This document shows positions 15,795-63,080 of a DNA stretch of 64,000 nucleotides, one piece after another. The stretch is taken from contig NZ_JAAMPA010000001.1 in assembly GCF_011758655.1 (NCBI RefSeq), positions 2,294,001-2,358,000 on the forward strand, written 5' to 3'. The position numbers and the translations under genes are program-made. Position 1 is the first letter of the stretch. Every line of letters starts with the position of its first letter. The notes under the pieces are model-generated. The model saw only the letters and a program-made list of their open reading frames with translations. It had not been told where the DNA came from and ran no database searches. Source of the DNA: Modestobacter marinus (GTDB taxonomy: Bacteria > Actinomycetota > Actinomycetes > Mycobacteriales > Geodermatophilaceae).

Positions 15795-15860
15795 GGCCCC
15801 ACTGCACCCCGCCACTCGCAGGCTCCCGGCGGGACCCTGCAGTGGGGCCGTTCCAGCACG
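15795..15860 (+). repeat. Nested hairpin element, copy A (3' of manA)
   Basis: Outer arms at 15795-15806 and 15838-15849 pair perfectly (12 bp). Inner arms lie at 15808-15813 and 15828-15833. The 11-base tail GTTCCAGCACG follows at 15850-15860. The element starts six bases after the manA stop. Three relatives lie at 17490, 53009 and 63024. Confidence 0.75.
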
Positions 15861-15928
15861 GCGCCGTGCTCGCGGCGGTACCCTGGACGACGGCACGAGC
15901 CCCGCCGAAGCCTCGGCATGCTCGCTCG

Positions 15929-15944
15929 CCCCGCACGAGCGGGG
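15929..15944 (+). other. Small hairpin in the ahcY leader
   Basis: Six-base arms (15929-15934 and 15939-15944) enclose an ACGA loop, between a possible -10 (TACCCT near 15878) and the ahcY start. I could not fit it to the SAH riboswitch consensus. Confidence 0.3.
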
Positions 15945-16000
15945 ACCACAGCGACCGACAGAGCCCGCCCGTCCCGGGCCGGGCCGGACACTGGAGCGAC

Positions 16001-17485
16001 ATGACCGCCAGCACTGGCACCCGCGTCCTGACCGACGGCGACTTCAAGGTCGCCGACCTCTCCCTGCACGGCTTCGGCCGCAAGGAGATCAGCCTCGCCG
16101 AGCACGAGATGCCCGGCCTGATGGCGCTGCGCGAGGAGTACGGGGACGCGCAGCCGCTGGCCGGCGCCCGCGTCGCCGGCTCGCTGCACATGACCATCCA
16201 GACCGCCGTCCTGATCGAGACGCTGGTCGCCCTCGGCGCCGACGTCCGCTGGGTCAGCTGCAACATCTTCTCCACCCAGGACCACGCGGCCGCGGCGATC
16301 GTCGTCGGCGACGGCACCCCCGAGGAGCCGACCGGCGTGCCGGTCTTCGCCTGGAAGGGCGAGACGCTGCCGGAGTACTGGTGGTGCACCCAGCGGCTGT
16401 TCGAGTTCACCGACGACGACGGCACCGTCATCGGGCCGAACATGCTGCTGGACGACGGCGGCGACGCCACCCTGCTGGTCCACCTGGGCACCCGCTTCGA
16501 GGCCGACGGCGTCGTCCCGGACACCACCGACGCCGACTCCGAGGAGTACGGCGTCATCCTCGACGCGCTGCGCACCAGCCTCACCGAGGACGCCCAGCGC
16601 TGGACCCGCATCGGTGCGGCGATCAAGGGCGTCACCGAGGAGACCACCACCGGTGTGCTCCGGCTGTACGAGCTCGCCCGCGAGGGCCGGCTGCTCTTCC
16701 CGGCGATCAACGTCAACGACTCGGTCACCAAGAGCAAGTTCGACAACCTCTACGGCTGCCGGCACTCCCTCATCGACGGCCTGAACCGCGCCACCGACGT
16801 GATGATCGGTGGCAAGGTCGCCGTCGTCTGCGGCTACGGCGACGTCGGCAAGGGCTGCGCGGAGTCGCTGCGCGGCCAGGGCGCCCGGGTCATCGTCACC
16901 GAGATCGACCCGATCAACGCCCTCCAGGCGGCGATGCACGGCTACGAGGTCACCACGCTGGACGAGGTGATCGGCAAGGCCGACATCATCATCACCACCA
17001 CCGGCAACAAGGACATCATCTCCGCCGAGCAGCTGGCCTCGACCAAGCACCAGGCGATCATCGGCAACATCGGTCACTTCGACAACGAGATCGACATGGC
17101 CGGCCTGGCGCGCACGCCCGGCGTGGTGCGGACGACCATCAAGCCCCAGGTCGACGAGTGGCGGTTCGCCGACGGCCACACGATCATCGTGCTCTCCGAG
17201 GGGCGGCTGCTGAACCTGGGCAACGCCACCGGGCACCCCAGCTTCGTGATGAGCGCGTCCTTCTCCAACCAGACCCTGGCCCAGATCGAGCTGTGGGGGA
17301 ACCGGGCCGCCTACGAGGGCCAGACCCCCGGCGTCACCGTGCTGCCCAAGCAGCTGGACGAGCACGTCGCCCGGCTGCACCTGGCCGCCCTCGGGGTGAA
17401 GCTGACGACGCTGACCAAGGTGCAGGCCGACTACCTCGGGGTCCCGGTCGAGGGCCCGTACAAGAGCGACCACTACCGCTACTGA
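16001..17485 (+). CDS. ahcY: Adenosylhomocysteinase (S-adenosylhomocysteine hydrolase)
   Basis: 494 aa. It splits SAH into adenosine and homocysteine using bound NAD and relieves inhibition of methyltransferases. [20 protein letters not shown] begins the substrate domain, [16 protein letters not shown] follows, and [24 protein letters not shown] is the NAD motif. The C-terminus ends KSDHYRY as in the family. The length matches the long form with the 40-residue insert found in mycobacteria. GGAG before the ATG at 16001 is the ribosome-binding site. Confidence 0.97.
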
Positions 17486-61749: not shown

Positions 61750-61860
61750 CCCCCGGGCCGCGACCGGGAAGAGCACGGCGTGGAACGCTGTTGGGCAGAG
61801 CAGGACACCGGCCTCTGGAGCCGGTCAGCCCTGTGACCACAGCCGTGTGAGGAGCGCTCC

Positions 61861-63021
61861 GTGCAGTTGCCACCCCTGGTGGAGCCCGCCACCGACCTGT
61901 CGATCGACGAGGTCCGCCGCTACAGCCGTCACCTGATCATCCCCGACGTCGGGATGGACGGGCAGAAGCGGCTCAAGAACGCCAAGGTGCTGGCCGTCGG
62001 CGCCGGCGGCCTCGGCTCCCCGGTGCTCATGTACCTGGCCGCGGCCGGTGTCGGCACGCTCGGCATCGTCGAGTTCGACACCGTCGACGAGTCGAACCTG
62101 CAGCGCCAGATCATCCACGGGCAGTCCGACGTCGGCCGGTCCAAGGCCGAGAGCGCCCGCGACTCGATCAAGGAGATCAACCCGCTGGTCGACGTGCGGC
62201 TGCACGAGACCCGGCTGGACTCCTCGAACGTCGAGGAGATCTTCAGCCAGTACGACCTGATCGTCGACGGCACCGACAACTTCGCCACCCGCTACCTGGT
62301 GAACGACGCCTGCGTGCTGCTGGACAAGCCCTACGTGTGGGGCTCGATCTACCGGTTCGACGGCCAGGTCTCGGTCTTCTGGAACGAGCACGGGCCCAAC
62401 TACCGCGACCTCTACCCGGTGCCGCCGCCGCCCGGGATGGTCCCCTCCTGCGCCGAGGGCGGTGTCCTGGGCGTGCTCTGCGCGACCATCGGCGCCATCC
62501 AGGCCACGGAGGCGGTCAAGCTCATCACCGGCATCGGCGAGACGCTGCTCGGCCGGCTGATGGTCTACGACGCCCTGGAGATGACCTTCCGCGAGATCAA
62601 GGTCCGCAAGGACCCGGAGGGCGAGCCGATCACCGGCCTCATCGACTACGAGGCGTTCTGCGGTGTCGTGTCCGAGGAGGCCCAGGAGGCCGCCGCGGGT
62701 TCGACGATCACCGTCGACGAGCTCAAGGACATGATGGACGCCGGCAAGGACTTCGAGCTGATCGACGTCCGGGAGCCCAACGAGTACGAGATCGTCTCCA
62801 TCCCGGGCGCGAAGCTGATCCCCAAGGACGAGATCCTGTCCGGCCGGGCGCTGGCGCAGCTGCCGCAGGACAAGCCGATCGTGCTGCACTGCAAGACCGG
62901 CGTCCGTTCCGCCGAGGCGCTCGCCGCGGTCAAGAACGCCGGCTTCAAGGACGCCGTGCACGTGCAGGGCGGCGTGACGGCGTGGGCGACCCGGATCGAC
63001 AAGGCGCTCCCCACCTACTGA
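61861..63021 (+). CDS. moeZ: Adenylyltransferase/sulfurtransferase MoeZ
   Basis: 386 aa from GTG 61861 with GAGGAGCG upstream. The E1-like domain (residues 1-265) has RYSRHLIIPDVGMDGQKRLKNAKVL, VGAGGLGSPVLMYLAAAGVG and DGTDNFATRYLVNDAC, and the Cys in VPSCAEGGVLG. The rhodanese domain (about 285-386) has the active Cys in LHCKTGVRSAEAL. MoeZ activates the C-terminal glycine of sulfur-carrier proteins (MoaD, CysO, ThiS) and passes sulfur to them. The zinc CxxC pairs of MoeB are absent, as expected in MoeZ. Confidence 0.96.
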   Translation: MQLPPLVEPATDLSIDEVRRYSRHLIIPDVGMDGQKRLKNAKVLAVGAGGLGSPVLMYLAAAGVGTLGIVEFDTVDESNLQRQIIHGQSDVGRSKAESARDSIKEINPLVDVRLHETRLDSSNVEEIFSQYDLIVDGTDNFATRYLVNDACVLLDKPYVWGSIYRFDGQVSVFWNEHGPNYRDLYPVPPPPGMVPSCAEGGVLGVLCATIGAIQATEAVKLITGIGETLLGRLMVYDALEMTFREIKVRKDPEGEPITGLIDYEAFCGVVSEEAQEAAAGSTITVDELKDMMDAGKDFELIDVREPNEYEIVSIPGAKLIPKDEILSGRALAQLPQDKPIVLHCKTGVRSAEALAAVKNAGFKDAVHVQGGVTAWATRIDKALPTY

Positions 63022-63023
63022 AA

Positions 63024-63080
63024 GGACCCCTTCGCCCCCCGACCCACGCTCCGCGCGGGTCGGGACCCTGCGAAGGGGCC
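63024..63080 (+). repeat. Nested hairpin element, copy C (3' of moeZ)
   Basis: Outer arms 63025-63035 and 63070-63080 (one A-C mismatch, as in copy B) and inner arms 63038-63045 and 63057-63064 pair. It starts three bases after the moeZ stop. The GTTCCAGCACG tail is missing and a second hairpin follows instead. Confidence 0.75.

Follow-up and report, generated by a model that had tools for sequence, protein, structure and literature searches.

Short palindromes that are dispersed in high copy number through bacterial genomes have been described as REP sequences and, in composite form, BIMEs. According to Di Nocera et al. (PMC3733652), REPs are found near the 3' ends of genes and GTAG termini often supply the stop codon; CGTC REPs are without a known transposase, and Mycobacterium tuberculosis belongs to the species in which REP-like sequences carry no tag. 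The main text of that paper contains none of the words ‘actinobacteri-’, ‘Geodermatophilus’, ‘Blastococcus’ and ‘Modestobacter’. A literature search covering open-licence papers found no description of the repeat analyzed here. Factor-independent terminators of high-GC bacteria can lack a U run, and the insertion target of the mycobacterial MIRU is DTGA. MIRUs are described as targeting start codons and as carrying an internal frame coupled to the gene that follows (PMC12548453).

The repeat analyzed here, from Modestobacter marinus, resembles REPs and BIMEs in being a short, dispersed, high-copy palindrome that is mostly extragenic, 3' of genes and in some cases paired, and resembles CGTC REPs in having no known transposase. 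It differs in its length (hairpin mostly 54–56 nt, vs. 20–40 bp in REPs), in its two stacked stems with an internal loop, in having no unpaired tag (GTAG or CGTC) next to the stem, in the predominance of one distance from the stop codon, and in the lack of a RAYT gene in the genus genomes searched. Like the MIRU it is an actinobacterial, mobile-looking repeat at gene junctions, but its fixed end is the upstream stop codon and its unit is a strong hairpin. With high-GC terminators lacking a U run it shares a strong hairpin a few bases past the stop codon; in contrast to these, its loop sequences are conserved across genera, convergent gene ends are not preferred, some copies lie in tight same-strand junctions, and other hairpins are found downstream at moeZ and ahcY.

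Copies in the window and range of the family

The window was the whole stretch of DNA analyzed, 64,000 nucleotides (C1:2294001–2358000) of the 5.10-Mb M. marinus genome. The original prediction had placed four hairpins of a common plan 3–6 nt after the stop codons of manA, ahcY, moeZ and a DEAD-box helicase gene, three of them with an identical tail. All four were found at the positions claimed, and the gene names fit the Pfam matches of the hosts (phosphomannose isomerase type I, S-adenosylhomocysteine hydrolase, ThiF + rhodanese (MoeZ-like) and DEAD-box helicase, respectively). Copies A (3' of manA, 15791..15865, + strand), B (3' of ahcY, 17487..17561, + strand) and D (3' of the DEAD-box helicase gene, 53004..53079, − strand) were tailed, and copy C (3' of moeZ, 63021..63094, + strand) was tail-less. 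Scores were 82.5 (A), 92.3 (B), 69.8 (D) and 64.6 bits (C), with a covariance model that was itself built partly from these copies. Each copy followed a TGA stop, located at 15786–15788 just upstream of A, at 17483–17485 for B (spacing TGA-C-GAAGG), at 53083–53081 for D and at 63019–63021 for C (spacing TGA-AA-GG). Measured from the stop to the first base of each copy as originally delimited, the gaps were 6, 4, 5 and 2 nt (A, B, D, C), so the range becomes 2–6 nt. The tail GTTCCAGCACG was matched exactly in A (15850..15860, +), B (17546..17556, +) and D (53009..53019, −), as claimed, but family-wide it belonged to a minority of copies (40/241, loose pattern). Within the window, no Rfam family reached its gathering score; the lowest E-value within 15600–17800 was 0.79, for a match downstream of copy B.

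The covariance model, built from 12 copies, gave 136 matches at E ≤ 1 in the M. marinus genome, probably a lower bound, with 150 of 16,973 first-look candidates scored. With up to 82 candidates scored per genome, matches were obtained in 33 of 59 genomes, comprising 23/23 of the genus Modestobacter (M. marinus included), 9/12 other Geodermatophilaceae and 1/24 from the rest of the order, the last with a single weak match. A pattern made for the loop region and scanned against the species genomes in the collection matched at least 80 loci, and all matches listed were from Geodermatophilaceae. Three family genomes of other genera (G027, G029 and G031) matched neither the repeat model nor the ahcY leader motif described below, and may be distant or incomplete. 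The closest searched relative, G013, carried 19 copies in a contiguous stretch of 757,621 bases with 716 called genes; this stretch was unbiased, whereas the M. marinus tiles were chosen around matches, with a few of them overlapping, so that M. marinus rates are biased. The repeat is a dispersed DNA repeat family with more than 100 copies in M. marinus and copies in its relatives. The genome-wide search, its extension to relatives, and the covariation and stop-distance checks thus returned more than 100 copies that are family-wide, covarying and stop-anchored, and not four isolated or randomly placed hairpins.

Architecture and pairing of the arms

A total of 261 copies were collected, and 20 without a clear hairpin were dropped, leaving 241 unique copies. 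Without the tail the unit measures about 59 bp, and with it about 71–75 bp. Its parts are, in order, the head GAAGGACC, a variable outer stem (about 10–12 bp), an internal loop that is asymmetric and C-rich, the inner stem, an apical sequence conserved as CTCGC-NN-GCTCG, and a closing GGCC. The hairpin core measured 54–56 nt in 170/241 copies. Loops and C-rich internal loop were conserved in sequence as well as in shape. The head reads GAA followed by GG, and CGTC was present only in the tail, 9 nt 3' of the stem, in a minority of copies.

Covariation was analyzed across 126 copies, in an alignment fitted to the model, which favors the structure. Paired cells accounted for 96.7% (vs. 80.6% in shuffles) and cells changed on both sides numbered 272 (vs. 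65.5), and 0 of 500 shuffles reached either this number or the observed pairing. The covariation score was 0.411 (vs. 0.126 in shuffles), and fell to ≤0.102 when the partner was shifted by 1–3 columns. Changes in the outer stems therefore compensate as the original prediction held, with pairing and double changes far above shuffles. Pairs were counted in 198 of the 241 copies (core lengths 53–58). Over eight positions the outer arms were 96% Watson-Crick (1521/1584 cells), with 63 distinct 8-nt arms among the 198 copies. Single mismatches at these positions were 10 G-U vs. 27 A-C (p ∼0.008), with no G-U excess. The ninth position, kept outside the main figure, was poorly paired (140/198 Watson-Crick, 13 G-U, 2 A-C); with it the totals were 23 G-U and 29 A-C. 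Because selection on the sense RNA would favor G-U, and the single mismatches were without G-U bias, pairing appears to be preserved in DNA, whether through recognition of the hairpin as DNA or through repair of palindromes, in counts uncontrolled for mutation bias. The same mismatch counts weaken covariation as proof of RNA function.

Complementary arms could also arise without selection or a transposase, if mutational template switching in replication perfected imperfect palindromes and the repeats were old debris. The near-complete Watson-Crick pairing across so many distinct arms, with both kinds of mismatch, is consistent with this, as is the finding that arms at a given gene differed between species blockwise (by eye). 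Template switching accounts for pairing, but not for the spread to more than 100 sites, the conserved loops or the anchoring to stop codons, and as a full explanation it appears very doubtful.

Anchoring to stop codons and turnover between species

Genes were called with our own codon-usage script. For 187/241 copies a same-strand stop lay at most 25 nt upstream, at 0–5 nt in 170 of these; 25/241 adjoined only the stop of a convergent gene, and 29/241 adjoined neither. Exactly four bases (N-GAA) separated the stop from the GG of the stem in 118 of 165 TGA hosts, giving TGA-N-GAA-hairpin, and two bases in 15 of 18 TAG hosts, giving TAG-AA-hairpin (TAA hosts, n = 4). The 25 convergent-only copies were scattered from −1 to 23 nt from that stop, with no comparable peak. 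The predicted link to stop codons thus held family-wide, but the spacing was sharper than 3–6 nt. Such anchoring is unusually precise beside known bacterial repeats.

Stop usage of the hosts was close to that of all genes in the M. marinus tiles (TGA 93, TAG 8 and TAA 0 of 101 hosts, vs. 1300, 105 and 8 of 1413 ends). A copy at the main spacing was found at 74 of 1946 stop TGAs vs. 4 of 3876 other intergenic TGAs (Fisher p ∼7e-31), and in convergent intergenic regions at 1 of 509 non-stop TGAs. As stop TGAs are filled and other intergenic TGAs hardly at all, the triplet alone is not the signal. The anchoring is unexplained by mobility alone, since a DNA transposase lacks any obvious means of distinguishing stop TGAs from other TGAs. 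Either selection acts on position, or whatever guides entry recognizes the place at which translation terminates. A sequence-specific DNA element, in the form of a cruciform or of a binding or gyrase site, would stand at gene ends by mere tolerance, and fits the conserved loops and C-rich internal loop. Tolerance alone would not yield one spacing in more than two thirds of TGA hosts, nor a single copy at the non-stop TGAs of convergent regions, and this account is highly improbable.

TGA as the element's own left end was rejected as a general rule: a TGA in the usual place was present in 1/29 copies beside no called stop, and stops differ at filled sites. In 14 of these 29 copies some stop triplet lay within the nine bases before the stem, and these copies may follow uncalled genes. 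At the other end, TGA directly 3' of the closing GGCC was seen in 16/201 tail-less copies vs. ∼5.8 expected, equally in copies without a head TGA; this modest and unspecific enrichment is suggestive of a TGA target-site duplication.

Turnover was determined between M. marinus and G013, which are syntenic at ∼89–93% identity, with G001, 95.5% identical to G013, as a third species. Across 308 mapped gene ends, 17 were filled in M. marinus only, 6 in G013 only, 5 in both and 280 in neither; sites filled in one species were filled in the other beyond chance (5/22 vs. 6/286). At the site of copy D, G013 has no copy, and the same-strand genes on either side are separated by 14 nt; at the place of the copy at L092 15966 it has TAGGGATG. 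The stop codon differed from that of G013 at 5/15 M. marinus-only sites vs. 12/251 plain pairs, and the base after the stop was the same at 2/10 vs. 170/239. A shared copy (L088 5091) follows TGA in M. marinus and TAG in G013 and G001; a junction can therefore change without a new insertion. Several ‘empty’ sites read as remnants in which the outer arms were kept and the center was lost, e.g., at moeZ and manA in G013 (G001 compared). A reading of such sites as cleanly empty was accordingly rejected, since several read as deletion remnants, and gain and loss are inseparable at each site. Loss occurs, new copies on top of old ones occur, and not every M. marinus-only site is an insertion; in some cases what looks like an insertion may be a loss in the other species instead. 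Nested, tandem or inverted copies were found at L080, L087, L089 and L110. At L083 (10000–10300), M. marinus has a longer block with two seemingly degraded copies after the stop, and G013 has none.

Were insertion directed by translation termination, the site would be marked by a ribosome in the act of terminating or by mRNA cleavage at the stop; the head would be joined there, and the copy later fixed in DNA. This would account for the use of both TGA and TAG stops with hardly any other intergenic TGA, for the differing stops at filled sites and for a strict spacing at the head end only, and we hold it to be a speculative route with little chance of being correct.

Tight junctions were also occupied. 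After 60 nt was subtracted for the element, 7/101 M. marinus hosts fell in the same-strand class of ≤20 nt. There was one clear junction case, a copy at L084 12333–12394 (C1 ∼2189074), at a place where stop and start overlap as TGATG in relatives. For the next gene there (pentapeptide repeats), the predicted start is a GTG within the hairpin, which would add a repeat-encoded N-terminal extension. At L122 (10709–10794) the downstream gene is predicted from a GTG overlapping the stop (GTGA), and would read through the entire repeat.

Possible function at gene ends and probable mobility

Model matches were found after ahcY in 16/18 genus loci and after moeZ in 15/20, vs. 0/21 after a control gene (one gene used as control). 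The ahcY count omits three genus genomes with the gene broken across contigs. Shortened remnants (L353, L169) were counted at moeZ and ahcY, as were a weak match (L370) and the L357 copy, which lies in an older copy's loop, 26 nt on. Copies at these genes varied in stem, loop and direction: L369 and L371 were inverted at moeZ, L357 had one copy nested in the loop of another, in G016 and G020 the ahcY stop was separated from an older copy's remains by new copies, and the remains at ahcY in G001 matched the version found in G013. Such persistent occupation could mean selection for function. Since the same genes remain occupied across the genus, the RNA hairpin beside the stop may have a role.

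The ahcY leader was a separate observation. A 29-nt hairpin-forming motif (window 15896–15924, + strand) was identical in 18/18 same-genus ahcY loci. Its 27-nt version, with ≤3 mismatches, was present exactly once per genome in 32/59 genomes (genus 23/23, other family members 9/12, rest of the order 0/24), and 0 times in a reversed control. The motif had no Rfam match. It is a candidate cis-regulatory RNA for S-adenosylhomocysteine hydrolase, its location at ahcY having been seen within the genus.

No T run followed the hairpin at copies A, B and C (D was judged by eye). M. marinus-only sites were convergent in 3/17 cases vs. 86/280 plain ends, and lay in same-strand junctions of ≤20 nt in 3/17 vs. 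71/280; neither difference was significant (Fisher). A separate hairpin, also with no T run, lies downstream of copy B (17564..17599, + strand), and strong hairpins were seen 3' of ahcY in relatives too; another lies downstream of copy C (63085..63119, + strand), with similar hairpins in relatives, some of them without a copy (both by eye). As further strong hairpins are found 3' of moeZ and ahcY, also in loci lacking a copy, the element is not needed as a terminator there. An intrinsic terminator was unsupported on these grounds, i.e., the missing T run at A–C, the lack of preference for convergent ends, the tight same-strand junctions and the other hairpins downstream. For the suggestion of a selected RNA structure such as a 3' end or terminator element, the terminator is unsupported for want of a T run and of a convergent preference, and selection on RNA pairing is not evident, the single mismatches carrying no G-U bias.

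A broader version, in which the hairpin is a selected mRNA 3'-end element that protects from exonucleases, stops post-termination ribosomes or aids transcription end, would have copies spread by duplication; copies would lie beside stop codons because they are retained solely where they work. It agrees with the near-fixed spacing from head to stop, the use of stop TGAs and hardly any other intergenic TGAs, the occupation of moeZ and ahcY by different versions (with the control gene empty), the co-occupied sites beyond chance and the kept pairing. Against it stand the absence of a T run at three window copies, the sampling of gene ends by M. marinus-only sites in the manner of the background, the other hairpins downstream of moeZ and ahcY (by eye), the spread of the convergent-only copies, though a palindrome would serve both ways, the sites with remnants alone, and the lack of a G-U excess. 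We regard this selected element as rather unlikely, though the foremost of the alternatives.

The repeat is, on balance, probably a REP-like family of short, mobile but non-autonomous palindromes, as its dispersal, nesting, inversion and turnover suggest. The earlier description of a mobile REP-like repeat is thus upheld in part: it agrees with copies that are nested, tandem or inverted, with their species-specific presence and with the remnants, but a RAYT-type gene and the tags and size of REPs are lacking. PF01797 (RAYT, Y1 transposase) had 0 matches in the M. marinus genome and 0 in all 21 same-genus genomes (M. marinus included), in a search in which named control genomes were positive in 5/14 and coverage of the family was the genus Modestobacter. 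Across 35 genomes (21 of the genus, 14 from the rest of the order), it was present in just two, both of them order-level genomes without copies. RAYT/IS200-type mobilization was rejected on its absence from all 21 same-genus genomes searched. By the tests made (no PF01797, no tag at the stem, larger size), the repeat is not a RAYT-mobilized REP. Proteins encoded between close copies were compared for 44 copy pairs (88 proteins, 11 recurrent clusters), and Pfam identified no transposase in ten recurrent-cluster members, which were ordinary enzymes, gyrase B, pentapeptide and DUF proteins. No plasmid or phage match to copy B was obtained at E ≤ 0.01, and no clear replication-strand bias was seen, with weak GC skew and no formal test.

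For such mobile palindromes, a non-RAYT enzyme would copy the element as a folded single-stranded DNA hairpin, and copying in this form would keep both arms complementary. New copies would join a gene end at the stop codon, sometimes replacing the stop, and would sometimes land on an older copy or remnant, by which the same genes would remain occupied. A copy at a gene end would be outside the reading frame and do little harm, and the transcribed hairpin may influence the mRNA 3' end as a side effect.

Separating stop codons from identical triplets elsewhere is hard for a DNA transposase alone. The finding implies either an unknown enzyme or route that targets gene ends, or strong selection on hairpin position after the stop. 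If true, it would call for caution in the annotation of terminators and gene starts in Geodermatophilaceae, and the repeat could serve as a marker for strain comparison.
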